Shown: piece by piece, positions 6,651-40,576 of the stretch | Layout: every line of letters begins with the position of its first letter | Position numbering within the stretch: the stretch's first letter is position 1 | Origin: Clostridium thermobutyricum | Lineage (GTDB): Bacteria > Bacillota > Clostridia > Ch29 | Assembly: GCA_016842005.1 (NCBI GenBank) | Contig: JAENYD010000011.1 | Coordinates: forward strand, 1 to 64,000 | Direction: 5' to 3' | Length of the DNA stretch: 64,000 bases | Notes under the pieces: model-generated | The model's database searches: none | What the model saw: only the letters and a program-made list of their open reading frames with translations | Told to the model about the DNA's origin: nothing | Made by a program: the position numbers and the translations under genes

Positions 6651-6666
6651 TGGCATGCTAATTGCT
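6651..6666 (+). promoter_or_regulatory. sigma-54 -24/-12 promoter for the CoA-transferase operon
   Basis: TGGCATGctaaTTGCT matches TGGCAYR-N4/5-TTGCW; 46 bp before the ATG at 6712. Confidence 0.85.
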
Positions 6667-17003: not shown

Positions 17004-17173
17004 ACCAGTATTTATGCAAAAGAGACCGAAGAAGAGTGGTACCGGGAAGATACAAAATATTCACAATAATTAAAAAAAATTAATAACACAAATTTTTTTG
17101 ATTAACCTGCAGGAAATGATAAAATGGTAAAGAATAATAATACTTGGATATGAATAATAAGGGGTGATGATTT

Positions 17174-18067
17174 ATGATTAAAACCATGGAGCAGCTAATA
17201 GAAAAAGCCCGGCAGCAGAAGACCATGAAGCTGGCTGTTGCTGCGGCACAGGATGCCGAAGTGCTGAAGGCTGTTGATGAAGCTCTGGGCCTGGGGATTG
17301 CAGAGCCTGTGCTGGTAGGAGACGAAGAAAAAATCAATGAGATAGCCACCGGCCTGGGTATTGATGCGGGCAAATTCCGGATAATCGACAAGCCGGATTT
17401 CGAGGAGGCTGCAAGAGAGGCGGTGTCCCTGGTCAGCAGCGGCAAGGCGGATTTTGTAATGAAGGGCATACTGGGTACAGCGGACCTGTTAAAGGCTGTA
17501 CTGGACAAAGAAATCGGGTTAAGGGGCAAAAACCTTCTCAGCCATGTCATGGTTTACCAGGTGCCCGCATATCACAAGATGCTGATTTTAACCGACGGTG
17601 GCATGAACATTGCTCCTGATGTGGAACAGAAAAAGCAGATAATTGAAAATGCCCTGGAGGTTTCCAGGTCTCTGGGATGTGAGGATGCAAAGGTGGCTGT
17701 GCTTACTGCCGTAGAAAAAGTCAATCCCAAGATGCAGGCGACCATGGATGCCCAGGCGTTGAAAGAAATGCACTTTGACGGGGCAATAGTTGACGGTCCC
17801 CTGTCCTTTGACCTCGCCATCAGCCGTGAAGCGGCGGAGCACAAGGGTATAAATAGCCCGGTAGCCGGGGAAGCGGATATTTTACTGGTACCTGTTATTG
17901 AGGTTGGCAACGGCATAGGCAAGTGCATGACCTACTTTGGGAATGCCCGGTCAGCGGGGATAGTGATGGGAGCAACAGCGCCCATAGTCCTGGTGTCAAG
18001 GGCGGATACCCATGAGGCAAAACTCAACTCCATTGCCCTTGGAAGCGTAATAGCAGGCAGCAGGTAA
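17174..18067 (+). CDS. ptb: phosphate butyryltransferase, copy 1
   Basis: Phosphate acyltransferase family (VSSGKADFVMKGILGTADLLKAVLD, VDGPLSFDLAIS). Confidence 0.93.
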   Translation: MIKTMEQLIEKARQQKTMKLAVAAAQDAEVLKAVDEALGLGIAEPVLVGDEEKINEIATGLGIDAGKFRIIDKPDFEEAAREAVSLVSSGKADFVMKGILGTADLLKAVLDKEIGLRGKNLLSHVMVYQVPAYHKMLILTDGGMNIAPDVEQKKQIIENALEVSRSLGCEDAKVAVLTAVEKVNPKMQATMDAQALKEMHFDGAIVDGPLSFDLAISREAAEHKGINSPVAGEADILLVPVIEVGNGIGKCMTYFGNARSAGIVMGATAPIVLVSRADTHEAKLNSIALGSVIAGSR

Positions 18068-18168
18068 TAATCAGAATACTCTGTTATATGATTTCTATTG
18101 TCGGATAGTGTATAATTTTGACGAGGGGAAGCATTTCTGAAACCATATTTTGTGAGGGAGTGAGAGAA

Positions 18169-19911
18169 TTGAAGAAACTTTTGACAGGCAACGAAGCTAT
18201 TGCCCGGGGAGCGTATGAAGCGGGCGTAACAGTAGCGGCTGCCTATCCGGGTACCCCCAGTACCGAGATACTTGAAAATATCGCGCCATACGAAGAAATC
18301 TATGCAGAATGGTCACCAAATGAAAAGGTAGCCCTGGAAGTAGCGATAGGGGCTTCCATATCCGGAGCCAGGTCTCTGGCAGCCATGAAGCACGTAGGGG
18401 TTAATGTTGCGGCAGACCCCCTGTTCACGGCAGCATATACCGGAGTAAACGGCGGCCTGGTACTGGTAACTGCCGACGACCCCGGCATGCACAGTTCACA
18501 GAATGAGCAGGACAACAGGTACTATGCAAAATCAGCGAAACTTGCGATGCTCGAACCCAGTGACAGCCAGGAAGCAAAGGACTTTGTAGCTGAAGCTGTG
18601 AAAATAAGCGAAGAGTATGACATTCCGGTACTTTTAAGGGTAACAACCAGGATATGCCACAGTAAAGGTCTGGTAGAATTCAAAGAAAGACAGGAAGCAG
18701 GCATAAAGCCGTATGAGAGGAACATGGGCAAATATATAGCCACTCCCGGCAACGCAAGAAAACTTCATGTAACCCTGGAAGACAGGCTGGCAAGACTGGA
18801 AGAATACAGCAACAGTACACCGCTCAACTCCATAGAGTGGAACGACAAGAAAACAGGTATAGTTACAAGCGGTATAAGCTACCAGTATGCAAAAGAAGTA
18901 TTCGGCGACAGCGCATCATACTTAAAGCTTGGTATGACCTTCCCGCTGCCCAGGAAAAAGATGAAAGAATTTGCCGATCAGGTGGATACCCTTTATGTAA
19001 TAGAAGAGAACGAGCCATTTATAGAAGAAGCGCTGAAGGTAATGGGTATAGACTGTACAGGTAAAGACAAAATACCGGGCATATTGGAACTCAACCCTGA
19101 CATAGTAGCAAAAAGCCTTCTTAACAAAGAAAACCAAATAATAAAGGCAGACCGAGACATGCCTGCCCGTCCTCCTGTACTTTGCCCGGGATGTCCGCAC
19201 AGAGGCCTGTTCTATGCACTGAGCAAGAAAGACGCAGTAGTAACCAGCGACATAGGGTGCTATACACTGGGAGCCATGCCGCCTTTAAACGCTGCCGATA
19301 CATGCATCTGCATGGGTGCAAGCATCAGTGCAGGCCATGGTTTCGCAAAGGCCCATGAGAAAAACGGCAGAGACAAAAAAGTATTTGCAGTAATAGGAGA
19401 CTCCACCTTCTTCCATTCAGGCGTAACCGGTCTTATGGACATGGCATACAACAAGAGCAACCTCACAGTAATAATAGCCGACAACAGGATAACCGGCATG
19501 ACAGGTCACCAGGAAAACCCCGGAACCGGAAAAACACTAAAAGGTGAAGACACCGTAATGGTAGATATACCAAAGCTGTGTGAAGCCCTGGGTGTCAGGA
19601 ACGTAGTAGAGGTCAATCCTTTAAATCTCAAAGACATGCAAGCCGCAGTAGACGAGGCCATGACATCCACAGAGCCCATGGTAATAATAACCAAATGGCC
19701 GTGTGCATTATTAAAAGAGCAGCCGAAACCGGCGGGGTACTGCAGGGTAGACCAGGATAAATGCAGGCAGTGCGGAGCATGTATGAAGATAGGGTGCCCT
19801 GCCATACAGAAACTGGACGGCAAAATAGTAATTGATGATACAATGTGTAACGGCTGCGAACTGTGTACACAGATGTGTGCATTCAATGCTATCGAGAGGG
19901 TAGGTGAATAA
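18169..19911 (+). CDS. iorA: indolepyruvate ferredoxin oxidoreductase alpha subunit, copy 1
   Basis: YPGTPSTEIL, GDSTFFHSG TPP region, C-terminal 2x[4Fe-4S]; TTG start at 18169 after gggagtgag. Confidence 0.93.
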   Translation: MKKLLTGNEAIARGAYEAGVTVAAAYPGTPSTEILENIAPYEEIYAEWSPNEKVALEVAIGASISGARSLAAMKHVGVNVAADPLFTAAYTGVNGGLVLVTADDPGMHSSQNEQDNRYYAKSAKLAMLEPSDSQEAKDFVAEAVKISEEYDIPVLLRVTTRICHSKGLVEFKERQEAGIKPYERNMGKYIATPGNARKLHVTLEDRLARLEEYSNSTPLNSIEWNDKKTGIVTSGISYQYAKEVFGDSASYLKLGMTFPLPRKKMKEFADQVDTLYVIEENEPFIEEALKVMGIDCTGKDKIPGILELNPDIVAKSLLNKENQIIKADRDMPARPPVLCPGCPHRGLFYALSKKDAVVTSDIGCYTLGAMPPLNAADTCICMGASISAGHGFAKAHEKNGRDKKVFAVIGDSTFFHSGVTGLMDMAYNKSNLTVIIADNRITGMTGHQENPGTGKTLKGEDTVMVDIPKLCEALGVRNVVEVNPLNLKDMQAAVDEAMTSTEPMVIITKWPCALLKEQPKPAGYCRVDQDKCRQCGACMKIGCPAIQKLDGKIVIDDTMCNGCELCTQMCAFNAIERVGE

Positions 19912-19913
19912 AG

Positions 19914-20495
19914 ATGGCTAACCAGGTGAAGAATATACTGTTTGTAGGTGTAGGAGGACAGGGTATAATCCTCACAAGCAAAGTACTGTCCACAGCCCTT
20001 GTAAACGCAGGGTACGATGTAAAGATGTCCGAGGTGCACGGCATGGCTCAGAGGGGCGGAAGCGTTACTACCCAGGTAAGGTACGGTGACAAAGTATACT
20101 CTCCGATTATAGGCAAGGGTCAGGCGGATATAATAGTATCCTTTGAGAAAATGGAAGCCTTGAGGATGATAGAATATCTAAAAAAAGACGGTGTAATGGT
20201 AGTAAATGACCATGCCATACCGTCCATGCCGATCCTGACAGGACAGGCAGAATACCCCGAAGGTATAATAGAAGAACTCCAGAGCAAGGCAAAGACAATA
20301 GTATTCAAGGCGGCAGAAGTAGCACGGGAGATAGGAAACCCCAGAACCCAGAACATAGTCCTTCTGGGTGCCCTTGTTAAGGCTTTCGGCCTTGAAGACC
20401 TTGACTGGGATAAGGCCATTGAAGAAGAAGTTAAGCCCAGGTTTGTTGAAATAAACAAAAAGGCCCTGGAAAAGGGCATGGAACTGGCAGGTTAA
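19914..20495 (+). CDS. iorB: indolepyruvate ferredoxin oxidoreductase beta subunit, copy 1
   Basis: GVGGQGIILTSKVL, EVHGMAQRGGSV. Confidence 0.93.
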   Translation: MANQVKNILFVGVGGQGIILTSKVLSTALVNAGYDVKMSEVHGMAQRGGSVTTQVRYGDKVYSPIIGKGQADIIVSFEKMEALRMIEYLKKDGVMVVNDHAIPSMPILTGQAEYPEGIIEELQSKAKTIVFKAAEVAREIGNPRTQNIVLLGALVKAFGLEDLDWDKAIEEEVKPRFVEINKKALEKGMELAG

Positions 20496-20518
20496 AGTAT
20501 TCATTTGAGATTGCAGGT

Positions 20519-20562
20519 ATAAAAGCGAGAACCCTTTCATATAAAGGAGTTCTCGCTTTTAT
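20519..20562 (+). terminator. intrinsic terminator after iorB copy 1
   Basis: ataaaagcgagaaccctttcatataaaggagttctcgcttttat: long stem ending in TTTT. Confidence 0.8.
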
Positions 20563-20758
20563 GTTAATACCAAAATAAAGTTCAATTTTTGTTCTGAACG
20601 GTACACACTGAAAAAGGATTGTTGTTGTGTTATAATAATATTTAAAATCACAGAACGCCCCAAAACAAATCAATTAAGTGGATTAATCGGGTTGAGGTTT
20701 ATATTCTGATTAAATAATGAAATTTTGAGGTCAATAAAATATAGCAGGAGGAGATTGA

Positions 20759-22633
20759 ATGAATAATTCTTTAGTTTTGGAACACTTAAAATCTTTAGTT
20801 GACCAGAGTATCGGCGAAAACAATCAGAATATAGACATCAGGATATTAAAAGACAATTTTGATTTAATAGTATCAATGATGATTGACAGGGACAGTTGCT
20901 TATTATTAATGGATAACGATAAAAATGTAATCAGTGTATATAGTTATGATAGATTTTCACATTTAGACAGTCTGGTGGGGAGTTCTATAAATTTACCCTT
21001 TATAGACAAGATCGAGCTGGACCAATTAACAGATATAATGGAGGGGACACGCGAAAAGAGTAATATCAGATTGGATGCAGTGACAACCCGGGTGAGAAGA
21101 AAGAACATTATTTCGGCAAACAGATTGGATAACAATACGAAAATGGAAAGCAGAAAAACAGATGAGAAATTGTTTATGTATCAGTGCTATTCTAAGATGC
21201 AATGTATAGAAAACTATTATCTGTGCATGATAACGCCCGATGAAAATGATATATTCTATAGCACACTATTGAAGAAAATAAGTGATAACATTAATAAGTC
21301 CATGAAATTGACAATGAAATATTATAATTACAATAAGTTTTTAATGAAATGCCTTGACGCAGTCGAGGATGGAATTTCGGTATGCGACAAAGACGGTTAT
21401 CTTATATATGTGAATAATGCGTGCTGCAGTTTAATAGGTGAAAGCAAGGAAGAATTATTATTCAAGAAAGCTCAAGAAGTTACAAAGAATAAGCCTGCCC
21501 TGCTTAAGATAATCGAAGAGCGGAAGAAGTTGGTGGATTTTGAATATTTTCTTAATCTCCGGGCGAAGAATAAAACAATTCATCTTATAAATTCTGGTTA
21601 TCCTGTTTTTGCTGATGATGGAGAAGAGGTAATAGGTGCGATAAATATTTTTAGAGGGATTAAGCGGTCAAGAAAACTGGCAAATACTATTGCAGGATAT
21701 CAAGGTACATTTGAATTTAAAGATATTATTGGACAGAGCAGTATTATAAAGGACAGAATCAATCTGGCCAAAGTCTATTCACGCAGTGGGGCTAACATAC
21801 TGATACAGGGGGAGAGCGGAACCGGGAAAGAATTATTTGCTCAATCAATTCACAATTACAGTGACAGAAAATCAGAACCGTTTATTCCGATAAACTGCGC
21901 AAATTTCCCCAATGAGCTGATTGATAGTGAATTATTCGGATACGAGGAAGGGGCTTTCACCGGCGCCCAGAAAGGGGGGAAACCAGGGAAGTTTGAGCTG
22001 GCAAATGGCGGTACGCTGTTCCTGGATGAAATGGGAGAAATGCCATTGCATTTACAAGCCAAGCTTTTAAGGGTGGTTGAAACCAAAACTATACAGAGAA
22101 TTGGCGGAAGCAGGCCTATTAAAGTTGATGTGAGGATAATAGCAGCTACGAACAGGCAACTAGAGAAAAGTGTAAAAGAAGGGAAATTCAGAAAAGATTT
22201 GTATTACAGGCTGAAAGTGTTATTTCTTGAGATACCACCCTTAAGAGAAAGAAAAGAAGATATTCTGATACTTGCACAATATTTCATTGATAAATTCGAT
22301 GAGAAAATGCAAAAGAGTGTAAAAGGTATTGACAGCGATGGTCAGAAAATTATGCTCTCGTATAACTGGCCGGGGAATGTAAGAGAACTTGAAAATATTA
22401 TTTCCAGAGCACTATATATCAGTGATGGTGAATATATTACAAGAGAACATTTGATTAGAGCGGGACTTGATGAGATAAATTACCAGGTCAATACTAATAG
22501 CAAATTGAGTGACATAAACAGAGAAATACTCCTTGAAACCCTTAAACAAACGGGAGGCAACAAGAAAAAAGCTGCAGAAATTTTGGGGATTTCGAGGCCT
22601 ACGGTTTACAGGATGTTAGAAAAAAATAAATAG
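20759..22633 (+). CDS. sigma-54-dependent transcriptional activator (PAS, AAA+, Fis HTH)
   Basis: GESGTGKELFAQSIH, GAFTGA, C-terminal KKAAEILGISRPTVYRML. Confidence 0.93.
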   Translation: MNNSLVLEHLKSLVDQSIGENNQNIDIRILKDNFDLIVSMMIDRDSCLLLMDNDKNVISVYSYDRFSHLDSLVGSSINLPFIDKIELDQLTDIMEGTREKSNIRLDAVTTRVRRKNIISANRLDNNTKMESRKTDEKLFMYQCYSKMQCIENYYLCMITPDENDIFYSTLLKKISDNINKSMKLTMKYYNYNKFLMKCLDAVEDGISVCDKDGYLIYVNNACCSLIGESKEELLFKKAQEVTKNKPALLKIIEERKKLVDFEYFLNLRAKNKTIHLINSGYPVFADDGEEVIGAINIFRGIKRSRKLANTIAGYQGTFEFKDIIGQSSIIKDRINLAKVYSRSGANILIQGESGTGKELFAQSIHNYSDRKSEPFIPINCANFPNELIDSELFGYEEGAFTGAQKGGKPGKFELANGGTLFLDEMGEMPLHLQAKLLRVVETKTIQRIGGSRPIKVDVRIIAATNRQLEKSVKEGKFRKDLYYRLKVLFLEIPPLRERKEDILILAQYFIDKFDEKMQKSVKGIDSDGQKIMLSYNWPGNVRELENIISRALYISDGEYITREHLIRAGLDEINYQVNTNSKLSDINREILLETLKQTGGNKKKAAEILGISRPTVYRMLEKNK

Positions 22634-22670
22634 AAATTTCATTACTGTCAAGGGGCAGTATAAAACTAGA

Positions 22671-22702
22671 GAAGGATGCGATAATTATTGCATCCTTCTC
22701 TA
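22671..22702 (+). terminator. hairpin after the sigma-54 activator gene
   Basis: gagaaggatgc gataattatt gcatccttctc: perfect 11-bp stem. Confidence 0.55.
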
Positions 22703-22762
22703 TCTGCTTGTAGATATTTTTCTGGTGTAATAATTGATTTAATTTTATGACATGCAAATCAG

Positions 22763-22778
22763 TGGCACGGTTTTTGCA
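22763..22778 (+). promoter_or_regulatory. sigma-54 promoter for butyrate kinase
   Basis: TGGCACGgtttTTGCA, full consensus match. Confidence 0.9.
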
Positions 22779-22869
22779 AGTTATATTATAAATTATGGGC
22801 ATAGCATGACAGTGGCGTGTTGCCCGAATACCAGTGGCTAATATCAATATCAGAATCAGGAGGGATAAA

Positions 22870-23949
22870 GTGACTAAATCAAATTATATGATACTGGCTG
22901 TGAACCCCGGTTCAACCTCAACAAAAATTGCAGTATATAAAAATGAGACGGAACAGTTCAGAGAGACCGTTGAACATTCCAATCAGGAACTATCCAGATA
23001 CAAGTCTGTAACCGATCAGTATGAAATGAGAAAAGAAGCCGTGTTGTCCTATCTGAAAAAAATGGGATTTGATGTAAAGCGATTGTCCGCCGTAGTAGGT
23101 AGAGGAGGTCTGTTACCACCTGTTAAATCAGGAGCCTATCGGGTAAACAAAGCAATGCTGGACCGGCTGATTAACAGGCCTGTAGCAGAGCATGCTTCAA
23201 ACCTGGGTGCGGTAATTGCTTATCACATCGCCAGTCCTTTAGAAATACCGGCTTATATATATGATTCCGTTGCTGTGGATGAACTGGAAGATGTAGCGAG
23301 ATTATCAGGATTGCCTGAAATAGACAGGAAAAGTCTTTCACACGCTTTAAATATGAGGGCAGTAGCAATAAAGACAGCTGAAAAGCTAAATAAATCTTAT
23401 CATGATATGAATATCATTGTGGCTCATCTAGGCGGGGGTATTTCCATAAGCGTGCACAAGGGAGGTCAGATGATAGACATAGTATCTGACGATGAAGGAC
23501 CTTTTTCACCGGAAAGAGCTGGAAGGGTACCCTGCATGCTATTGGCCAAACTCTGTTATTCAGGCAAATATGACCACAGGACTATGATGAAGAGATTGAG
23601 GGGAAACGGAGGTCTGGTAGCCTATCTGGGTACAAACAAAGCCGTAGAAGTTGAGGATAGAATCAAAAACGGTGATAAGGAAGCGGAACTGGTTTATTAT
23701 GCTATGGCATACCAGGTAGCTAAAGGCATAGGCGAACTGGCTACAGTAGTAATGGGTGATGTAGACCGTATAATAATTACCGGAGGCATTGCTTATTCCA
23801 GAATAATGACTGAATGGATTAAAGAAAGGGTGAAATTTATTGCCCCTGTTGAGATAATGCCAGGTGAAAATGAACTGGAGGCCCTGGCTTTAGGTGCATT
23901 AAGGGTATTAAGAGGTGAAGAACAGTATCATGAGTATGATATGGAATAA
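22870..23949 (+). CDS. buk: butyrate kinase
   Basis: ILAVNPGSTSTKIAVY, VAHLGGGISISVHKGGQMID; GTG start at 22870 after aggaggg. Confidence 0.93.
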   Translation: MTKSNYMILAVNPGSTSTKIAVYKNETEQFRETVEHSNQELSRYKSVTDQYEMRKEAVLSYLKKMGFDVKRLSAVVGRGGLLPPVKSGAYRVNKAMLDRLINRPVAEHASNLGAVIAYHIASPLEIPAYIYDSVAVDELEDVARLSGLPEIDRKSLSHALNMRAVAIKTAEKLNKSYHDMNIIVAHLGGGISISVHKGGQMIDIVSDDEGPFSPERAGRVPCMLLAKLCYSGKYDHRTMMKRLRGNGGLVAYLGTNKAVEVEDRIKNGDKEAELVYYAMAYQVAKGIGELATVVMGDVDRIIITGGIAYSRIMTEWIKERVKFIAPVEIMPGENELEALALGALRVLRGEEQYHEYDME

Positions 23950-24038
23950 TTCAGGAAGCTGGATTGTTGTCATTCCGGCAAACTGCTGGTAAGTCCTTCT
24001 TTTGATTGTATTGCCGGGGGTCATAGAAATCAAGTCTG

Positions 24039-24055
24039 TGTAAAATATTATTACA
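24039..24055. promoter_or_regulatory. dyad TGTAA-N7-TTACA, putative upstream activator site
   Basis: tgtaaaatattattaca. Confidence 0.55.
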
Positions 24056-24128
24056 TGACAAGTGTTGTTACATGGGTTTGGAAAACGCTGAATATTCTGA
24101 TGTTTCTGAACCCGGTCGGGTGCAAAAG

Positions 24129-24145
24129 TGTAAAAAACAGTTACA
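24129..24145. promoter_or_regulatory. dyad TGTAA-N7-TTACA, putative upstream activator site
   Basis: tgtaaaaaacagttaca, 90 bp from the preceding copy. Confidence 0.55.
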
Positions 24146-24268
24146 GTTTTTGGCGTTCTTAATTCCAAAGCATTTTATTTTATGATGTTGACCTTTGTAT
24201 TTTGGTTGTCGCCTTTGTTGGGGATGGTTTCCCGGATAAACAGAACAACAGGCGTATCAAATGATAAT

Positions 24269-24284
24269 TGGCAGGAATCTTGCG
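24269..24284 (+). promoter_or_regulatory. sigma-54 promoter for the YkvI-like transporter
   Basis: TGGCAGGaatcTTGCG. Confidence 0.8.
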
Positions 24285-24402
24285 AATAGAAAAATTGATT
24301 AACTGTGAAGACTGAATTATATCAACACAAGAACAGGGGAGGTGTAGAGGAGGTACCTGACAGTCTTTTGGACCACCAATAATCTTATAAGGAGGTAAAC
24401 AA

Positions 24403-25524
24403 ATGAGTAAAAAATTTGCAGTCCCTGCTGCTTTTGGGGTAGCGGCAGTATGGTTTGGCGGTCATGCCGGGGGAGGTTTTGCAACAGGCAGACAGGAAGC
24501 CAGTTTCTTTGTTCAGTATGGCTGGACTGCGGCATGGGTTCCTTTGCTCTCAATGGTTCTATTGGGAATTGCATTTTATTTTGGTATTGAATTCGCTAGG
24601 ATTAACAAAACATTTGACTACAAAAACTTTGTGAACAAACTATATGCACCTTATGAAAAAATATTTGCAAACTTGTTCGACCTCTTATATCTATATGTAA
24701 TTCTACTGGCCACCGGTGCCGCTATCGCCGGTGCGGCAAGCCTTATACAGCAAGCAATGAATCTTCCATATGGGTTAGCGGTTATAATTACGGGAGCGAT
24801 ATTGTTGATATTTACCGTTTTTGGCGCGGATTTAGTCAGAAATGCTTCTGCCGGTATGTCTGTTTTCCTTATAGCTTCATTGCTATTGGTGACTGTTCTT
24901 GGTATCAAGTCGGGTGCAGCCAACATCAGTGAAGTACTCGCTACAAAGCCAACAACTTCAGGATTTGGGAAAATATTACTGAATGGAGTGTTGTATGCTT
25001 CCTTCCAGTCTATGTTGATAGGGGCTATGGTATCAGTATCTGATGTTTTGAAAACCAGAAAAGATACCTTTAATGCTGCACTGGTTGGAATCGTTATTAA
25101 CGGTGCAATACTGTTACTGGTATGTTATATGATGCTGGGCTACTATCCTGCGATTGTGAAGGAAACTTTACCGGTATATTTTGTTACAGGTCAATTGGGG
25201 CAATCATGGTTATTTGTGCTTTATTCACTAATCCTTTTCTTTGCGCTTATTTCAACCGGGGTTTCATTTGTATTCGGAGGAGTAAAGAGATTTGAGAATG
25301 CCTGGTCTTCGGGAAACCTGCAAGGCAGAAGGATAATATTGTCAGTAGTATTTCTGACAGTAGCTGCAGGGGTATCATTGTTCGGGCTTACTGCGATTGT
25401 TGCAAAAGGATATAGTTCCCTTGGATATATCTGTATTTTCCTTAATCTGATTCCTCTATTGGTAGTTGCGCCATATAAAATCAGGAAGGCAAGACAAGCC
25501 GAAACCGTAAATCCTGACGCATAG
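24403..25524 (+). CDS. YkvI/COG3949-like membrane transporter
   Basis: Polytopic; AAVWFGGHAGGGFATGRQEASFF signature. Confidence 0.75.
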   Translation: MSKKFAVPAAFGVAAVWFGGHAGGGFATGRQEASFFVQYGWTAAWVPLLSMVLLGIAFYFGIEFARINKTFDYKNFVNKLYAPYEKIFANLFDLLYLYVILLATGAAIAGAASLIQQAMNLPYGLAVIITGAILLIFTVFGADLVRNASAGMSVFLIASLLLVTVLGIKSGAANISEVLATKPTTSGFGKILLNGVLYASFQSMLIGAMVSVSDVLKTRKDTFNAALVGIVINGAILLLVCYMMLGYYPAIVKETLPVYFVTGQLGQSWLFVLYSLILFFALISTGVSFVFGGVKRFENAWSSGNLQGRRIILSVVFLTVAAGVSLFGLTAIVAKGYSSLGYICIFLNLIPLLVVAPYKIRKARQAETVNPDA

Positions 25525-25560
25525 AAGAAAAACATGACGGGCGTGTAATAATGCATAACA

Positions 25561-25577
25561 TGTAAAAAAGCATTACA
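25561..25577. promoter_or_regulatory. dyad TGTAA-N7-TTACA, putative upstream activator site
   Basis: tgtaaaaaagcattaca. Confidence 0.55.
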
Positions 25578-25637
25578 CATCCGGAACGGGAGGGCGGAAA
25601 GGGCTAGAGCGTTTTTGGCGGTAATCGCCTATAGAAA

Positions 25638-25680
25638 TATAGAGAACAAGTGTAAAAATGTTTTACATTTGTTCTCTATA
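25638..25680. promoter_or_regulatory. 43-bp near-perfect palindrome centred on a fourth TGTAA-N7-TTACA site (25651-25667)
   Basis: tatagagaacaagtgtaaaaatgttttacatttgttctctata; one mismatched arm position; could also act as a terminator. Confidence 0.55.
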
Positions 25681-25765
25681 TATTTTGCCCGAATATCTGT
25701 TAAAGCTCCGTTCAAAATCTGGTAAATACGTGTATACCGGCGTTTCAGTAATAATTATCAATCAT

Positions 25766-25781
25766 TGGCAAGAGTTTTGCA
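25766..25781 (+). promoter_or_regulatory. sigma-54 promoter for the FAD oxidase/Hdr/hydrogenase operon
   Basis: TGGCAAGagttTTGCA. Confidence 0.85.
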
Positions 25782-25858
25782 TTAAAGCGGATATGGTTAG
25801 GAGAATTGAGAATGCTTAACTAATATCTTTTAAATATTCATAAGAAGGGGGTCTTAAA

Positions 25859-27259
25859 GTGGATGTTCAATATCTGGATAAGCTGAAGGAGATTGTGGGA
25901 GAAGACGGCTATTTTGAAGAGTATGAAGATTTACTATGTTACTCGTATGATGCAACATATTTGAAAGGTAAGGTACCATCTATTGCACTTTATCCTACCA
26001 GCACTGAACAGGTATCTGAAATCATGAAAATTGCTTACGAAGAAGCAATTCCTGTAATTGCCAGGGGAGCGGGAACCAATATCGCTGGAAGTTTCATCCC
26101 TTTGGATAGAAATGCAATTATTGTCGACTTAAAACGCATGAATAAGATAATTGAAATTGATGCTGAAAATTTAACCGCAACTGTTGAGGCAGGGGTTGTC
26201 ACTCTTGACCTGATGACAGCTGTCGAGAAAGTTGGTCTTTTCTATCCGCCCGATCCCTCAAGTCAGAAAGTATCTACCATAGGCGGCAATGTGGCCGTAA
26301 ATGCAGGAGGTCCTCGAGGAGCAAAGTATGGGAATACTTTGGCTTATGTATTAGGCCTGGAAGTGGTTTTGGCTGACGGTAGAATATTGAATACAGGAAG
26401 TAAGTGTATAAAACAATCTTCGGGATACAACCTTGCGAAGCTATTTGTCGGTACGGAAGGGACTTTGGGCATAATAACCAAAGCTATATTAAAGCTTATT
26501 CCCAAGCCCGAAAGTAAGAAAACAATGGTGGCAATATTCGATAAATTACTGGATGCATCCCAGGCGGTTTCAAATGTTATAGCAAAGGGGATAGTACCCA
26601 CAACGCTGGAACTGATGGACGATAAAATGATAGCCCTGGTTGATCAGTTCAAACCCACAGGTTTTCCCAAGGATGCTGAAGCAGTGCTTATTATTGAAGT
26701 TGACGGACCTGCATCAATACTTGACGGACAGTTAGAGGAAATAAAGCAAATATGTATGGAGACAGGGGCCAGGGCTACTAAAATAGCTAAAGATGCGGAA
26801 GAGGCGGAAAAAATATGGGAAGGACGACGTTCGTCATATGGAGTATTCACCAGGGCAAGTCAAAATGTCCTTACAGAAGATATTACAGTCCCAAGGACCA
26901 AGTTTCCGGTTCTGGTGAAAAAGATAAAAGAAATAGGGGAGAAGTATAATGTAAATCTGTGCGTGGTTGCCCATGCCGGGGACGGTAATACTCATCCGGC
27001 TATTTTAGCTGACCTCAGGGATGAAGGTGAGAAGGAAAGAGTGGAGAAAGCCCTGGAAGAAATGGCTCTGGAAGGCATCAGACTTGGCGGCACATTGTCC
27101 GGTGAGCATGGGATTGGTGTGGTGAAAAAAGATTTTATGCTGGCAGAGCATGGTGAAGTAAGTCTGGCTGTAATGGAAAGTATAAAGAATGTTTTAGATC
27201 CGAAAGGAATATTGAATCCAGGGAAAGTGTGGAATAAGTCGGATATCACAAACAGCTGA
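25859..27259 (+). CDS. FAD-linked 2-hydroxyacid oxidase/dehydrogenase (GlcD-like)
   Basis: FAD_binding_4 region (RGAGTNIAGS, STIGGNVAVNAGGPRGAKYG), C-terminal HAGDGNTHP and LSGEHGIG. Confidence 0.92.
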   Translation: MDVQYLDKLKEIVGEDGYFEEYEDLLCYSYDATYLKGKVPSIALYPTSTEQVSEIMKIAYEEAIPVIARGAGTNIAGSFIPLDRNAIIVDLKRMNKIIEIDAENLTATVEAGVVTLDLMTAVEKVGLFYPPDPSSQKVSTIGGNVAVNAGGPRGAKYGNTLAYVLGLEVVLADGRILNTGSKCIKQSSGYNLAKLFVGTEGTLGIITKAILKLIPKPESKKTMVAIFDKLLDASQAVSNVIAKGIVPTTLELMDDKMIALVDQFKPTGFPKDAEAVLIIEVDGPASILDGQLEEIKQICMETGARATKIAKDAEEAEKIWEGRRSSYGVFTRASQNVLTEDITVPRTKFPVLVKKIKEIGEKYNVNLCVVAHAGDGNTHPAILADLRDEGEKERVEKALEEMALEGIRLGGTLSGEHGIGVVKKDFMLAEHGEVSLAVMESIKNVLDPKGILNPGKVWNKSDITNS

Positions 27260-27286
27260 TGCAGAGCGGGAAAGGGGGAAGAAAAA

Positions 27287-28447
27287 ATGAAAGATATTAA
27301 TGCATATAAAGATATGGTTGCTAAATGTGTCAGATGTGGTTTTTGTCAGGCTCACTGCCCGACATATAAGGCTCTTGGGGCAGAACCCTTTGTAGCCAGG
27401 GGCCGTCTTGAAATGGTTAATGCTACTTTCGACGGGAGACTTGACGGATATGTGGATGGAGTCATGAAACGGATGAACCAGTGTCTTCTCTGCGGGAACT
27501 GTACCCAAAACTGTCCTCCGGGGATTGAAACCGAAAAAATTGTTGAGGCATATAGGACGGCTTATATAAAGGAAAAAGGCATACCTGATGTTCTTAGCAG
27601 TGTAAAGACATTTATTGCTGATGTAGGCAATATAACCGGAGATGCACCGGATAACAGAATGCTTTGGGTTAATAACATACAGGATAAACTTGGGGATGTG
27701 AAGATAAATGAGCCGGCTGAATATGCGTATTTTGTCGGTTGCGTACCATCTTTGTACCCATCTGCATACAGCATCCCGCAGAATTTTGCTGCCATATTAA
27801 AAGCCGCCAATGTGTCTTTCTCACTTTTGGGGAAAGAAGAAAAATGCTGTGGTTATCCTCTTGCTGTAGGCGGGCTTCCTGAAGAAGCAAAGAAGACAGC
27901 CGAGAGCAACATTCAAAAACTCAAGCAGCTGGGCATAAAGAAAGTTGTAACGGGATGTCCATCCTGCTATCACATGTGGAAGGATTATTATCCCGAGCTT
28001 TTAGGCTATGACCCTGGCGTAGAAGTGTTTCACAGCACACAGCTTATGGCACAGCTGATATCAGAAGGGGCGCTGAAATTCAGAGAAACACCTATGGAGG
28101 TTACTTACCATGACCCCTGTGACCTGGGTAGAAAGAGTGGTATTTTTGATCCGCCCAGAGAAATTCTTCAAAACATTCCCGGAGTTGTCTTAAAAGAGAT
28201 GGCGTATAACAGGCTTGACTCCAGGTGCTGTGGCGGCGGAGGAAATCTGGAAATGAATGATGCCGCGCTCAGCAGTAAGGTTGCACAGGACAGAATCAGT
28301 CAGGCCCAGAATACAGGTGCAAAAGTCATTGTTTCGGCCTGTCAGCAGTGCAAGAGAACACTTCAGGCCGGCGCCAGGGCTATGAAGGCAAGAATTAAAG
28401 TGAAAGATATTTGTGAAATTGTGTTTGATGCCTTAGCTCAGGATTAG
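27287..28447 (+). CDS. GlcF/HdrD-like (Fe-S)-binding protein with two CCG domains
   Basis: CVRCGFCQAHCPTY, CLLCGNCTQNCP, EKCCGYPLAVGG, CCGGGGNLEMND, CQQCKRTL. Confidence 0.9.
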   Translation: MKDINAYKDMVAKCVRCGFCQAHCPTYKALGAEPFVARGRLEMVNATFDGRLDGYVDGVMKRMNQCLLCGNCTQNCPPGIETEKIVEAYRTAYIKEKGIPDVLSSVKTFIADVGNITGDAPDNRMLWVNNIQDKLGDVKINEPAEYAYFVGCVPSLYPSAYSIPQNFAAILKAANVSFSLLGKEEKCCGYPLAVGGLPEEAKKTAESNIQKLKQLGIKKVVTGCPSCYHMWKDYYPELLGYDPGVEVFHSTQLMAQLISEGALKFRETPMEVTYHDPCDLGRKSGIFDPPREILQNIPGVVLKEMAYNRLDSRCCGGGGNLEMNDAALSSKVAQDRISQAQNTGAKVIVSACQQCKRTLQAGARAMKARIKVKDICEIVFDALAQD

Positions 28448-28546
28448 AGCATAAAGCGGGGCATTACCCGATTTTGGAGTATGGAACCAAATCTGCAGTA
28501 GAAATAGGAGCTGTGGTTACTGAATAATCTATTAAAGCACCTATTT

Positions 28547-28999
28547 ATGAAGGAGGTAAACCAGATGAATATTAATGATTACAACTTTGAAGAAGGGCTT
28601 TACTATGATGAAGATCATGGCTGGGTAAAGGACGAAGGAGATTTTGTTACTATTGGTGTAACAGATTTTTTTCAAAAAGTAGCCGGTGAGATAGTATTTG
28701 TTGAACTGCCTTTAGTGGGGCGCACTATTGAGAAAGGCCAGCCGTATTCATCCATTGAATCAGGCAAATGGGTAGGCAGGCTAAAGGCCCCTTTAAGTGG
28801 AGAGATATTAGAAGTAAATGAAGAGCTTCAAGATTTCCCGTATACAATAAACGATGACCCATACGGAGATGGCTGGGTAATAAAGGTAAAACCGGACAGC
28901 AAAGAGGAGGACCTAAAAAAACTGTTTACTCCAGGAGATAAATTTGAAGCGTTTATCCGGGATGAAGAAAAGAAAATCAAAGAAGGCAAAAGGGAGTAA
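28547..28999 (+). CDS. GcvH-like lipoyl carrier protein
   Basis: GWVKDEGDFVTIGVTDFFQKVAGEIVFVELP; candidate lipoyl Lys in SIESGKWVGRLKAPLSGEILEVN. Confidence 0.88.
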   Translation: MKEVNQMNINDYNFEEGLYYDEDHGWVKDEGDFVTIGVTDFFQKVAGEIVFVELPLVGRTIEKGQPYSSIESGKWVGRLKAPLSGEILEVNEELQDFPYTINDDPYGDGWVIKVKPDSKEEDLKKLFTPGDKFEAFIRDEEKKIKEGKRE

Positions 29000-29034
29000 C
29001 ACTTACAACGCTGAAGGGGGAAGGTGAAAGATTT

Positions 29035-30261
29035 ATGACATTGGATGTAAAACAGCTTAAAGACAATGCGTTTGATTTTGAGCTGCTGGAAGAATTTCTA
29101 GCAAGCGTTCCAGAAGGTTCAAAACTAAAGACCTGTATCCAGTGCGGCAGCTGCAGCAGCAGCTGTCCTGCAGCTGAGGATATCTCTTCAACCCGGCGTC
29201 AGCTGTGGCGGATGCTTCAGATGGGATTGATAGACGAGGCTTTATCTTCTGAACTGTTCTGGGATTGTACTACATGTTCCATGTGCGAAATCAGGTGCCC
29301 TAGAGGCATACCATTAAGCAAGCTGGTTACAAAACTTAGAGAAAGATACAATGCTCATGAGGGACCAAAGGATGCTATGGCGCAGGTAGCGTCTGTTCTT
29401 GGCAAATCAAAGAATATAACGGGAGATGAACCTGAAAACCGATTGCTTTGGACCGAGAACATTCAAGGGTTATCTGCAGAACTTCGTAAAAACCTTGTTA
29501 AGGATAAAGCTGATGTAGTGTATTTTACCGGCTGTGTAAGCTCGCTGTTTCCACAGTCATATAAAATACCTCAATCTTTGACACGTATCCTGCTGGAGAC
29601 AGGGGTGGATTTTTCACTGCTGGGTGAAGATGAGTGGTGTTGTGGCTATCCTCAGTTGGCCGGAGGTTTTGGGGAGGATGCAGTAAAAGAATATGCGCTT
29701 CATAACCTGGAATTAGTTAAGGGTAAGGGGGCCAATACAGTCCTTATCAGCTGTCCTACATGTTACCATGTATGGAAGTATGAATATCCGGAGCTTCTCG
29801 GTGACCAACCGGACATAGACATTAAACATTATGTAGAATTCCTTCCTGAAGTAATCAAGGCGGGCAGCCTGGAGTTTAAAACAGATGAAGTGGTAGTTAC
29901 CTATCATGACCCTTGTGACCTTGGCAGAAAATCGGGGATCATTGAGCCTCCCAGAGAACTCATTAAGAGTTTGCCAGGTGTAAAACTGGTGGAAATGCGG
30001 TTTAACAGCGAGGACAGCAAATGCTGTGGTGGCGGAGGAAACTTAGAGATGATCAATGCTGACCTTTCCCATGAAATCGCTCAGAAGAGGGTAGAGGAAG
30101 CACTGGAAACAGGGGCTAAATACATTATCACAACCTGTCAGCAGTGCAAACGTACATTACAGAATGCAGCAAGACGTATGAGAGCCCGCATTAAAGTAAA
30201 TGACCTGCTGGAGTTTATTGACGAAAGAATTAATACCGAAGCCGGAGGTGAGCCCGCATGA
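29035..30261 (+). CDS. heterodisulfide reductase-like protein, HdrC-HdrB/HdrD type fusion
   Basis: N-terminal CIQCGSCSSSCP and CTTCSMCEIRCP; two CCG motifs (WCCGYPQLAGG, CCGGGGNLEM). Confidence 0.88.
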   Translation: MTLDVKQLKDNAFDFELLEEFLASVPEGSKLKTCIQCGSCSSSCPAAEDISSTRRQLWRMLQMGLIDEALSSELFWDCTTCSMCEIRCPRGIPLSKLVTKLRERYNAHEGPKDAMAQVASVLGKSKNITGDEPENRLLWTENIQGLSAELRKNLVKDKADVVYFTGCVSSLFPQSYKIPQSLTRILLETGVDFSLLGEDEWCCGYPQLAGGFGEDAVKEYALHNLELVKGKGANTVLISCPTCYHVWKYEYPELLGDQPDIDIKHYVEFLPEVIKAGSLEFKTDEVVVTYHDPCDLGRKSGIIEPPRELIKSLPGVKLVEMRFNSEDSKCCGGGGNLEMINADLSHEIAQKRVEEALETGAKYIITTCQQCKRTLQNAARRMRARIKVNDLLEFIDERINTEAGGEPA

Positions 30262-32216
30262 ACGAAATACGAGTAGGGGTATATGTATGTCATTGTGGAA
30301 GCAATATAGGCGGAGTAGTAGACTGCAAGGCTGTAGCAGAATACGCTGCAAACTTACCCGGAGTTGTAGTTTCAAGGGACAATCTGTACATGTGCTCAGA
30401 TCCGGGCCAGGCACTGATAAAAAATGATATAAAAGGCTATAACCTTAATCGTATAGTTGTTGCATCCTGTTCCCCGAGAATGCATGAACCAACATTCAGG
30501 GTAGTGGTAGAAGAAAGCGGGCTTAATCCGTTTTATCTTCAAATGGCAAATATCAGGGAGCATGTATCATGGGTGACGTCAGACACTGAGCGAGGAACAG
30601 AAAAGGCAAAAGACCTTGTCCGTGCGGCAGTCAACCGTGTTTTCTATAATGAGGCTATAACAACCTCCCAAATAGACATAGAAAAGGCAGTATTAGTAAT
30701 CGGTGGTGGTGTTGCGGGCATACAGGCAGCACTGACAACCGCACGTGCGGGGTATAAAACATATCTTGTTGAAAAGAAGCCTACCATTGGTGGTGTAATG
30801 GCGCAGCTTGACAAAACATTTCCAACCCTTGACTGCTCAGCCTGTATACTTACACCCAAAATGGTGGATGTAGCCAGGGAAGAAAACATAGAGCTGATTA
30901 CCAATGCGGAGGTAATTGACCTCCATGGTGCTGTAGGCAATTATGAAGTGACAGTAAGAAAGCACCCCAGGTATGTGGAGGATAGCTGCAGCGGTTGCGG
31001 TGCCTGTACTGATGCATGTGTTCTGAAAGGCAGGATTACAAATGAATTTGATTACGGGCTATCCAAGAGAGGTGCGGTATATATTCCTTTCCCACAGGCA
31101 GTACCGTTAAAGGCAGTTATTGATGAAGAAAACTGTCTTATGCTTAAAAACGGTAAATGCAAGCAGTCCTGTGTAGATGCATGTGACCGCAAATGTATAA
31201 ACTTTGACCAAAAGGCTGTGGATGTACAAATCAAGGTTGGGGCTGTAATTGTTGCAACCGGTTTCAAATCCTTTGATGCCGGTAAAATAAGTAAATACGG
31301 TTATGGCATGTATCCCGATGTAATAGATGCACTGCAGTTTGAGCGCATGACAAATGCATCAGGACCTACCGGCGGTAAGATTTTAACATCAAAGGGTCAG
31401 AAACCCAAAAAAATAGCTATTATCCACTGTGTAGGCAGCAGGGATGAAAATACAAATGCATACTGTTCAAGGGTATGCTGTATGTATTCGCTGAAGCATG
31501 CGCATCTGGCAATGGAAAAGACTGGCGCAGAAGTATTCAATTTTTATATGGACATCAGGGCATTTGGAAAAGGATATGAAGAATTCTATAAGCGTGTCCA
31601 GGAGGAAGGCGCCCATTTTATCAGAGGAAAGGTAGCCGAAGTAATTCAGAAAGAAGACAAACTTCATGTCAAGGCAGAAGACACGCTTCTTGGTAAGACA
31701 ATTGACCTGGGTGTTGATATGGTAATACTGTCAACGGGTCTGGAACCGTGCGAAGATGCGGCAAAGCTTGCAGAAGTGCTGCGCATTAATCGCAGTCAGG
31801 ACGGGTTTTTCATGGAAGCGCATCCAAAGTTGAACCCGCTTGAAACTCCTACTGCAGGGATATATATAGCAGGGTGCAGCCAGGGACCAAAAGATATACC
31901 TGATACGGTTTGCCAGTCTATAGGTTGTGCAGGGGAGGTAATCCGATTCCTTAACACCGGAAAAGTTACACTGGAATCTACTATAGTGCAGATAGATGCT
32001 GATATTTGTGTGGGCTGCACTATTTGCGAAAAGCTGTGTCCATATGGTGCCCTGGTATACAGTAAGGAAGACAGGGTAATGACAGTAGAAGCTGCCAAGT
32101 GTAAAGGGTGCGGCACATGTGCTGCCGCCTGTCCTTCAAAAGCAATTAAACAGCAGCACTTCTCAGCAGAACAGGTTTGTGCCGAGATAGAAGCGTTATT
32201 GGAAGGGGGGCAGTAA
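30258..32216 (+). CDS. hdrA: HdrA-like FAD/Fe-S subunit
   Basis: VGVYVCHCGSNIGG, VLVIGGGVAGIQAAL, QLDKTFPTLDCSACILTPKMV, C-terminal ferredoxin domain; ATGA overlap with upstream gene. Confidence 0.92.
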   Translation: MNEIRVGVYVCHCGSNIGGVVDCKAVAEYAANLPGVVVSRDNLYMCSDPGQALIKNDIKGYNLNRIVVASCSPRMHEPTFRVVVEESGLNPFYLQMANIREHVSWVTSDTERGTEKAKDLVRAAVNRVFYNEAITTSQIDIEKAVLVIGGGVAGIQAALTTARAGYKTYLVEKKPTIGGVMAQLDKTFPTLDCSACILTPKMVDVAREENIELITNAEVIDLHGAVGNYEVTVRKHPRYVEDSCSGCGACTDACVLKGRITNEFDYGLSKRGAVYIPFPQAVPLKAVIDEENCLMLKNGKCKQSCVDACDRKCINFDQKAVDVQIKVGAVIVATGFKSFDAGKISKYGYGMYPDVIDALQFERMTNASGPTGGKILTSKGQKPKKIAIIHCVGSRDENTNAYCSRVCCMYSLKHAHLAMEKTGAEVFNFYMDIRAFGKGYEEFYKRVQEEGAHFIRGKVAEVIQKEDKLHVKAEDTLLGKTIDLGVDMVILSTGLEPCEDAAKLAEVLRINRSQDGFFMEAHPKLNPLETPTAGIYIAGCSQGPKDIPDTVCQSIGCAGEVIRFLNTGKVTLESTIVQIDADICVGCTICEKLCPYGALVYSKEDRVMTVEAAKCKGCGTCAAACPSKAIKQQHFSAEQVCAEIEALLEGGQ

Positions 32217-32219
32217 AGC

Positions 32220-32654
32220 ATGCAAGAAAAAAAGGACTGGAAACCCAACATTATTGGTTTTTTATGTAACTGGTGCTCGTATGCAGGTGCTGATCTGGCA
32301 GGCACATCACGTATTCAGTATGATACTGCTATACGGCCTATACGCGTGATGTGTTCCGGCAGGGTTGAGCCCGCATTTATACTGAAAGCCTTTAGCGAAG
32401 GGGCTGATGGTGTACTGGTAGCAGGGTGTCACATCCCGTCAGACTGCCATTATATAAGCGGTAACTTTAAGGCGCTTAAACGTTATGAAACCTTTTTGCC
32501 ATTATTAGAAGAACTGGGTATTGAAAAAAAGCGGCTTCGCCTTGAATGGATTTCCGCTTCAGAAGGTGAGAAATTTGGTAAGGTTGTTAACGAGTTCACT
32601 CAGACAATAAGGGAGTTAGGACCTCTTAATCTTGGTAAAAGGAAGAGCGATTGA
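32220..32654 (+). CDS. mvhD: MvhD-type hydrogenase iron-sulfur subunit
   Basis: FLCNWCSYAGADLAG, VMCSGRVEPAF, GCHIPSDCHY. Confidence 0.9.
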   Translation: MQEKKDWKPNIIGFLCNWCSYAGADLAGTSRIQYDTAIRPIRVMCSGRVEPAFILKAFSEGADGVLVAGCHIPSDCHYISGNFKALKRYETFLPLLEELGIEKKRLRLEWISASEGEKFGKVVNEFTQTIRELGPLNLGKRKSD

Positions 32655-32716
32655 ATATATACCTTCAGAAACTTTTGAAGAAAATACAGTAATGCCTATT
32701 AGATGGAGGTGTAAAA

Positions 32717-34519
32717 ATGAAAATATATCTGGATGGAGAAGAGAAGCAAACCGACCGGGTGACTGTTCTTGAACTGCTGCAGGAAGAAGGGAAAGATTTT
32801 TACAGAATAGACAATAATATAGAAGAACTGCGCTGGATCAATAATGCGGAATGCCCTTTAATAAACATTGTAGAGATTAACGGCAGTATATATCCTGTGA
32901 ACGTATTGAAGAACAAAGCGTTAAAAGAAGGTATGGATATAAAAACAGCTTCTCCGTTAGTCAAAGAGAAACTGCAGGAACGTTTAACCCTGCTTTCCAA
33001 TAACCATGAATGTCTGTTGATAAGGAAGGCCCAGGAATTTGTGGCGTGTGAGGCGGCATCTGCCCGGATTGTTGACCTGGAAGAGAGAAAAACCTGGAAC
33101 TTTGAACCGAGATATTCAGAGCCCTCCCTTATGCATGACCCCAATAAATGCATTAGATGCGGAAGCTGTGTTGAGGCATGCAAGGAACAATCCGTAGAAG
33201 CCTTGACAATGGATGAAAAAGAGGGCGTTATCCTTGATGAGAGCAAGTGCGTTAGATGCGGCCAATGCGTATTAAACTGTCCTTTTGGCTATGTGGAAAA
33301 ATATATGAACTTATTAACCGACTGGCTGGACTGCGGGTTATGCGCTTTTTCCAGACCTGTGGGTGCTTTCTCCGAAAAGGATGACGTAGTAAAGGTAATT
33401 AATGCACTCAATGACCCGGACAAGTATGTTGTCATAGAAATTGCGCCTTCCATAAGGTCTACCATCGGCGAGGAATTTGGCGCAGAACCAGGAACAGTTG
33501 TAACCAATAAAATATATGCAGCATTAAGAAAAATAGGGTTTGACAGGATATGGGATACAAACTTTACCGCTGATTTAACCATCATGGAAGAAGGTTATGA
33601 GTTAATCGGAAGGGTCAAGAACAGCGGTGTTTTACCCCAGTTTACCTCATGCTGCCCGGGATGGATAAAATTTTGTGAAACATTTTATCCGGAATTAATA
33701 CCGCATTTATCAAGTGCAAAATCACCACAGCAGATGTTTGGTGCAACGGCAAAAACATATGCGGCAGAAAAGTTAGGAGTAGACCCTGACAAAATGTTTG
33801 TGGTATCTGTTATGCCGTGTACGGCAAAGAAATATGAAAGAAGCAGGGAAGAACTTGTTGACGCGTATGAATATTGGGTTGAAAAGGGGAAAGCAAAAGA
33901 ACAGTTTCCAGACGTAGATGTTGTTTTGTCAACAAGGGAGTGTGCAAAACTTCTGAAAATCTATAAGATAAACCTTCTGGACATGCCCGAGGAAGATGCT
34001 GATGGACTGCTGGGAGAATACTCTGGAGCTGCTCCGATATTCGGCAGGACAGGTGGTGTCATGACAGCGGCACTAAGGACAGCTTATGAAGTAATTGAAG
34101 GTAAACCGCTGAAAGACATGGAACTTGAGGCGCTGGGCGAGTATGATGGCATAAAAACTGCTTCTGTTCCTACCGGTGCCGGTGAAATAAAGATTGCTGT
34201 TGCATCAGGTCTGAATAATGCAAGGATGATATGTGAGGATATCAGAAAAGGTGGCGAGTTTGCGAAATATCATTTTATAGAAATAATGGCATGTCCGGGA
34301 GGATGTGTTGGAGGGGGCGGGCAAATAGTTACGCCCATGCTTTCCAAAAAACTTGCCAGGGCAGAAGGGCTGAATGAAGATGATAGAAACAGGCCTCTCA
34401 GAAAATCTCACGAGAATCCGGAAATAAAAAAAATATACGAAGATTTCTTACACGAACCGTGTGGAGAACTTTCACATCATCTGCTGCATACCCACTATTT
34501 CGGACGTGACAGTGAATAA
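32717..34519 (+). CDS. [FeFe] hydrogenase catalytic subunit with degenerate N-terminal Fe-S domain
   Basis: H-cluster motifs TSCCPGW, MPCTAKKYE, EIMACPGGCVGGGGQ; two [4Fe-4S] motifs. Confidence 0.93.
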   Translation: MKIYLDGEEKQTDRVTVLELLQEEGKDFYRIDNNIEELRWINNAECPLINIVEINGSIYPVNVLKNKALKEGMDIKTASPLVKEKLQERLTLLSNNHECLLIRKAQEFVACEAASARIVDLEERKTWNFEPRYSEPSLMHDPNKCIRCGSCVEACKEQSVEALTMDEKEGVILDESKCVRCGQCVLNCPFGYVEKYMNLLTDWLDCGLCAFSRPVGAFSEKDDVVKVINALNDPDKYVVIEIAPSIRSTIGEEFGAEPGTVVTNKIYAALRKIGFDRIWDTNFTADLTIMEEGYELIGRVKNSGVLPQFTSCCPGWIKFCETFYPELIPHLSSAKSPQQMFGATAKTYAAEKLGVDPDKMFVVSVMPCTAKKYERSREELVDAYEYWVEKGKAKEQFPDVDVVLSTRECAKLLKIYKINLLDMPEEDADGLLGEYSGAAPIFGRTGGVMTAALRTAYEVIEGKPLKDMELEALGEYDGIKTASVPTGAGEIKIAVASGLNNARMICEDIRKGGEFAKYHFIEIMACPGGCVGGGGQIVTPMLSKKLARAEGLNEDDRNRPLRKSHENPEIKKIYEDFLHEPCGELSHHLLHTHYFGRDSE

Positions 34520-34631
34520 TAGACAAAACCCGGGGAAATGAAATATAAGCGTAACTACACAAAAATAAAATGCAGCTATAAATTTAATTCAAAAATTTTA
34601 GGGATGAATGTAAAGCAGTACAGATATGGCA

Positions 34632-34760
34632 TTTATCCGATGGCTATCGCCGCTAATACTCCCGTCCTCATAGGCGGGAGATAAGCGGCGCTACGCCTCT
34701 GGATAACGGGTTTCTAAGCTTCAGAGGGTCCTGCCTGAAACCAAGAATCCTGATTATCCG
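34632..34760 (+). repeat. dispersed repeat, copy D
   Basis: tttatccgatggctatcgccgctaatactcccgtcctcataggcgggag...ctggataacgg...cctgaaaccaagaatcctgattatccg. Confidence 0.85.
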
Positions 34761-34914
34761 TATCCTCATTGCGGAGATGCTCTTCCCGGTGAGGGAATAA
34801 TAAGTTATCCTTTTATACCCTATAAGGAGATATCAATAATATTATGATGAGCCAGATTAACTGTATAAAACAATAAAAATGTTCTCTGGAACAAATGTAA
34901 AAGGAGGCATACAA

Positions 34915-38114: not shown

Positions 38115-38215
38115 TAATCAGAATACTCTGTTATATGATTTCTATTGTCGGATAGTGTATAATTTTGACGAGGGGAAGCATTTCTGAAACCATATTTTGT
38201 GAGGGAGTGAGAGAA

Positions 38216-39958: not shown

Positions 39959-39960
39959 AG

Positions 39961-40542: not shown

Positions 40543-40576
40543 ATAAATCAGAGAATCTTACAGTTTTGATGCCGTA

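Follow-up and report, generated by a model that had tools for sequence, protein, structure and literature searches.

The window, by which we mean the whole 64,000-nt stretch of DNA analysed, carries the gene of a sigma-54 activator lying between ptb-iorAB and buk, followed by two -24/-12 promoters, P1 and P2, which precede a membrane transporter gene and a long operon with Hdr-like and hydrogenase genes. The genes concerned are:

20759..22633, + strand, sigma-54 activator (enhancer-binding protein, EBP) with PAS, AAA+ and Fis-type HTH domains and the recognition helix SRPTVY (Pfam PF00158, PF02954, PF13426)
22834..23949, + strand, butyrate kinase gene, buk (TIGR02707)
24403..25524, + strand, polytopic membrane transporter, probably of the APC/LeuT fold, target of P1 (26% identity to the L132 homologue)
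25859..34519, + strand, target operon of P2: glcD-like, HdrD-like, GcvH-like, HdrD-like, HdrA-like, MvhD/FlpD and [FeFe] hydrogenase genes (ORFs with short gaps; Pfam and NCBIfam)

Upstream of the last two lie the following sites:

24039..24055, + strand, P1 distal site 1, exact dyad (pattern search)
24056..24072, + strand, P1 distal site 2, degenerate with 2 mismatches, abutting site 1
24129..24145, + strand, P1 proximal site, exact dyad (pattern search)
24269..24283, + strand, P1 -24/-12 element TGGCAGGAATCTTGC
25544..25560, + strand, P2 distal site 1, degenerate with 1 mismatch
25561..25577, + strand, P2 distal site 2, exact dyad, abutting site 1 (pattern search)
25651..25667, + strand, P2 proximal site, exact dyad, nested in a hairpin
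25766..25780, + strand, P2 -24/-12 element TGGCAAGAGTTTTGC

The four exact TGTAA-N7-TTACA dyads that the sequence-only reading had picked out, at 24039, 24129, 25561 and 25651, were recovered at the same positions and are the only exact copies in the window, where 0.07 would be expected and none of 100 shuffles contained four or more; exact TGTAA..TTACA with an N8 spacer does not occur in the window. All four fit TGT-N11-ACA and thus the TGT-N10-12-ACA class. A pattern search of the organism's own genome (2.62 Mb) returned eight exact dyads in total, and the remaining four all fall within open reading frames and have no -24/-12 match nearby; the dyads of the window are the sole noncoding exact copies in the 2.6-Mb genome. 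The genome-wide scan suggested earlier thus revealed a motif that is rare and linked to sigma-54 promoters, not one that is common and unlinked. Such promoters are themselves common in this genome, as TGGCAN6TTGCW gives 34 matches against 3 for the reversed control, and about 21 sigma-54 activators are encoded.

The arrangement of the sites differs from the paired, two-site layout initially proposed. Alignment with the orthologous promoters shows that each promoter has a 17-bp abutting pair, one copy exact and one degenerate, plus a single proximal site, making three sites at each. At P1 the first distal copy is the exact one, at P2 the second, and the equal 90-bp start-to-start distances, while correctly measured in both pairs, therefore join non-equivalent sites. 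Counted from distal site 2 to the proximal site, the distance is 73 bp at P1 and 90 bp at P2, and 61, 70, 71 and 70 bp in the orthologous promoters of genomes G002, G793, G815 and G808, respectively, a range of 61–90 bp over six promoters of five genomes; with such non-equivalence and 61–73 bp elsewhere, 90 bp is ruled out as a conserved spacing. The starts of the proximal copies, 140 bp upstream of the element at 24269 and 115 bp upstream of that at 25766, were correct as first given. Site centres lie 108–223 bp upstream of -24/-12 in the window (the abutting pair at about 200–220 bp and the proximal dyad at 108–133 bp from the -24) and 80–171 bp upstream in the orthologues, and no fixed helical phasing is evident among the three sites. 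Descent of P1 and P2 from a duplicated region was ruled out, the similarity being confined to the sites themselves.

Among the 85 activators placed in a tree, the EBP of the window groups as sister with that of G002, inside a nine-protein orthologue clade (support 1.0) to which neither its own genome nor any other genome surveyed contributes a further EBP. The N-terminal half of the window protein is rare, found in 3 of 391 class genomes (G000, the organism's own; G002; and G072) and in a few of G072's order. Orthologues with the helix SRPT[VI]Y occur in five genomes, its own and G002, G793, G815 and G808, and in each of them the motif precedes sigma-54 promoters: in the latter four, TGTAA-N7-TTACA sites begin at or just past the activator stop codon, and a -24/-12 element follows. 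G002 has the 17-bp tandem in exact form, G793 with one or two mismatches per copy and G808 with one degenerate copy, and in G815 only a half site abuts; with at most one mismatch, the tandem is found only in G000 and G002 among the 391 class genomes. The SRNT[IV]Y orthologues (G072, G871 and a second G815 copy) are accompanied by TGTTAC..GTAACA-like or TGTTRCAT..ATGYAACA-type sites, the G781 orthologue, whose C-terminal HTH was not read, has TGTTAC..GTAACA-like sites as well, and the G828 protein (SRPTLY) has sites of the TGTAAA-N3-TTTACA type. As SRPT and SRNT helices carry different dyads, the motif changes with the recognition helix.

Several minor observations came from the same survey. 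Tandem-like matches in G183 and G384 were a coding match or had no sigma-54 promoter and were treated as chance. G335 (L143 2693-2726) carries an abutting 17-bp TGTA..TACA tandem, which precedes a -24/-12-like site by about 100 bp and lies in front of a gene for an AtoE-like transporter; it is probably the site of a different TGT-class EBP group, which would then share the tandem layout. In G002 and G072, the activator orthologue has a gene for an XRE-cupin type regulator as its neighbour, and G781 has a similar gene a few kilobases off (L132, L142, L156), and the G781 orthologue (L156 5306-7060) is split over two frames by a frameshift or a sequencing error.

The occurrence of the same motif with the orthologues supports the proposal that the sites are enhancers of a sigma-54 activator and that the protein at 20759-22633 is the best candidate to bind them. 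They might instead be the UAS of a different activator, one of the roughly 21 that this genome encodes, that similarly prefers TGT-N11-ACA, given that TGT-N10-12-ACA is common to fifteen Clostridiales EBP groups (PMC6615313). Cross-binding is conceivable because of the number of activators and because one of them, L024 (helix SRATLY; position 2429 of G000 C36), carries TGTAATCAAATGATACA, a one-mismatch dyad, in the gap before its own promoter, where the activator gene ends and some 200 bp short of the -24/-12. We nevertheless find another owner unlikely, as the exact motif accompanies the 20759 orthologues in four other genomes, SRPTVY is unique among the organism's EBPs with a readable helix (five were not fully comparable), and further EBPs of the genome have different dyads in their gaps, for example TGTATAC..GTATACA and TGTCTA..TAGACA. 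Dyads of the TGT-N-ACA kind are also common to several other regulator families, and a repressor or a CRP/FNR-type factor unrelated to sigma-54 could act at P1 and P2; with the sites located 80–220 bp upstream of -24/-12 at six promoters from five genomes and the same EBP present in every case, this seems to us barely credible.

The P2 proximal site calls for an alternative of its own, as it is embedded in a hairpin:

25638..25680, + strand, perfect hairpin with a 20-bp stem behind the transporter gene; carries the P2 proximal site at the tip and resembles a terminator whose T tail is weak (terminator scan)

The dyad at 25651 could be no binding site at all but just a terminator tip, the terminator being of the intrinsic kind. 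The perfect stem, its folding energy of -25.3 kcal/mol (z -9) and its detection by the terminator scan speak for this, but the tail, TATTTTGCCC, is only weakly T-rich (tails are better at G815, L015 and L244 and moderate at L016), and the tip is an exact copy of a motif that also stands free at three other places here. Furthermore, the proximal site of G002 is a hairpin tip as well (z -4.7), its flanks unrelated to those of the window, and the same is true of the proximal sites of G815 and G808; nested in different stem flanks, the motif has been kept and the stem sequence has not. We therefore consider a terminator without a binding site very unlikely and take the 25651 dyad as a predicted activator site that doubles as a hairpin tip. 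A search of 16900-26000 against Rfam gave zero matches. A hairpin at the P1 proximal site, 24129, was unsupported (z -0.05, 6/10 flank pairs), as was one at the proximal site of G793. Overall, at least 8 of 10 flank positions are paired at four of the six proximal sites and at none of the 12 distal ones (background 1%, binomial p 1e-7).

Since the pairing at proximal sites was noticed after the fact, a wider test was run on 130 activator loci from this and other Clostridia genomes, in 51 of which a -24/-12 element follows the activator gene at 40–500 bp; 28 of these gaps contain a hairpin with a T-rich tail. Recurrence was counted when the gap held a free dyad that agreed with the tip at 11 or more of the 12 arm positions; by this measure, the tip motif recurs in 7 of the 28, against 0.8% in a control where tips were swapped against other gaps (p 2e-9). 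When the loci that had suggested the idea are left out, 3 of 23 remain (p 8e-4), one of them, L177, with no obvious palindromic UAS; at a laxer cut of 10, the count is 7 of 23 against 5.3% (p 1e-4). Two clear cases come from the genome under study: TGTATAC-N3-ATATACA at L016 (G000 C7) and TGTCTA-N6-TAGACA at L015 (G000 C3) are each nested in an intrinsic terminator, with two free copies and one, respectively. Like ordinary intrinsic terminators, these structures are perfect stem-loops behind an upstream gene, with a good T tail at G815 and at L015; unlike them, the tip here is a predicted activator site recurring free in the same gap, and the T tail at 25680 is weak. As a tentative generalisation, which we hold possible though doubtful, Clostridia terminators behind activator or target genes could often be built around the enhancer site of the same system, a single palindrome serving as DNA site and RNA terminator and coupling upstream termination to enhancer occupancy. 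The nesting may reflect economy of space or a functional coupling; if functional, enhancer sites recurring in terminator hairpins would provide a simple, testable link between termination and activation.

The genes under these promoters indicate what the regulon might do. The transporter is in the same family as the transporter of the orthologous regulons, and a fold search with a low-confidence model (pLDDT 61) matched AdiC, Nramp and CodB. The first gene behind the orthologous promoters encodes a tryptophanase-family enzyme in G793 and G808 (NCBIfam), with a near-identical start in G815; elsewhere, class I/II and class III aminotransferases come first, and a membrane protein that is a homologue of the window transporter comes next. 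Together with the neighbouring ptb-iorAB and buk, these targets point to amino-acid catabolism, and the regulon probably serves the breakdown of amino acids, most likely aromatic ones. The inclusion of both the transporter and the Hdr/hydrogenase operon, as the sequence-only reading had it, would follow from their sharing a cognate activator. For the operon, this link comes from one genome: a search of the family for the operon was negative, no relative carries it together with these sites, and the neighbourhoods of the named GlcD relatives examined differ from that of the window operon. Within 25859-35955, a lipoate-protein ligase gene lies downstream of the GlcD/HdrD/GcvH/HdrA/MvhD/[FeFe] hydrogenase genes; Hdr systems are not usually accompanied by a lipoyl protein.

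The promoter of buk, though nearest to the activator, has no strong sites, while the orthologues have strong sites exactly there. The following candidates were found:

22763..22777, + strand, -24/-12 element TGGCACGGTTTTTGC upstream of buk
22318..22334, + strand, weak dyad TGTAAAAGGTATTGACA, located within the coding sequence of the EBP; may be a remote site of the buk promoter (PWM score 10.8)
22390..22406, + strand, weak dyad TGAAAATATTATTTCCA, candidate (PWM cluster of three)
22726..22742, + strand, weak dyad TGTAATAATTGATTTAA, candidate (PWM cluster of three)

A cluster of three weak dyads upstream of the promoter arose in 1 of 5000 shuffles and in 0.06% of windows, which suggests that buk may belong to the regulon, although the dyad at 22318 lies in coding sequence for conserved protein residues.

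Three known systems invite comparison. The TyrR box, TGTAAA-N6-TTTACA, is 18 bp long and has nearly the same arms, and TyrR shares with our system the Fis-type HTH, the PAS-AAA+ core and the aromatic amino-acid theme; the sites of the window are, however, 17 bp with N7, and the EBP has no ACT domain match and scores 260 bits against the NCBIfam TyrR equivalog, below the cut-off of 576. GcsR of Pseudomonas aeruginosa, a TyrR-like sigma-54 activator, has three tandem sites by EMSA, and three dimer sites would fit the hexamer assembly described for it (PMC4894688). The number of sites per promoter, the similar TGTAA arms and the activation of an amino-acid catabolic operon are thus alike, but the GcsR site is an 18-bp TGTAACG-N4-CGTTCCG, its target is the glycine cleavage operon, and the part of that paper used here describes no nested site (PMC4894688). 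Among Clostridiales EBPs, TGT-N10-12-ACA UAS 100–250 bp upstream, often in multiple copies, are the norm (PMC6615313, Nie 2019), and the window shows several features of this class: the dyad type, the UAS distance and a nearby EBP with AAA+ and Fis HTH domains. ZypR, which controls tyrB-iorAB-butK, may be the nearest described group: these regulons share the dyad type, the promoter distance, several UAS per promoter and an EBP beside iorAB and buk, whereas the listed ZypR targets include neither an Hdr/hydrogenase-like operon nor this transporter (PMC6615313). This part of the window shows no tyrB. The kind of regulon is thus known, several copies of TGT-N10-12-ACA UAS being standard for Clostridiales. 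The nested-site architecture looks undescribed in the literature searched: the text of PMC6615313 mentions neither terminators nor hairpins, and we found no description of UAS inside terminators, although the search was partly by exact phrase and hence is weak evidence. A regulon including an Hdr/hydrogenase operon was likewise not described in the literature searched.

Taken together, the dyads are very probably the UAS of the 20759 activator, through which the transporter and the Hdr/hydrogenase operon would be co-activated from three dimer sites each as parts of an amino-acid fermentation regulon. In response to a presumed effector, activator dimers would occupy the three dyads of each promoter and seed a hexamer, which would loop to the sigma-54 RNA polymerase at 24269 and 25766 and, by hydrolysing ATP, open the promoter. 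Expression from P1 would then bring in amino acids through the transporter, their oxidation would proceed via Ior, Ptb and Buk, encoded on either side of the activator (buk with a sigma-54 promoter of its own), and the P2 operon might act as an electron sink, disposing of electrons as H2, with the P2 proximal site also forming the hairpin tip downstream of the transporter gene, where transcription may terminate. A clade of sigma-54 regulators that had not been characterised would thereby gain a binding motif, a three-site promoter layout and a cognate activator, and the Hdr/[FeFe]-hydrogenase operon is predicted to come on at the same time as amino-acid uptake.

Two further features of the window deserve mention. 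It contains two copies (17175-20496 and 37222-40543) of a 3322-bp segment carrying ptb, iorA and iorB, at 99.9% identity with 3 mismatches, reflecting a recent duplication or an assembly artefact. A second sigma-54 unit has its -24/-12 element, TGGCATGCTAATTGC, at 6651-6665, 379 bp past the stop codon of another activator (AAA+ 5352-5855).
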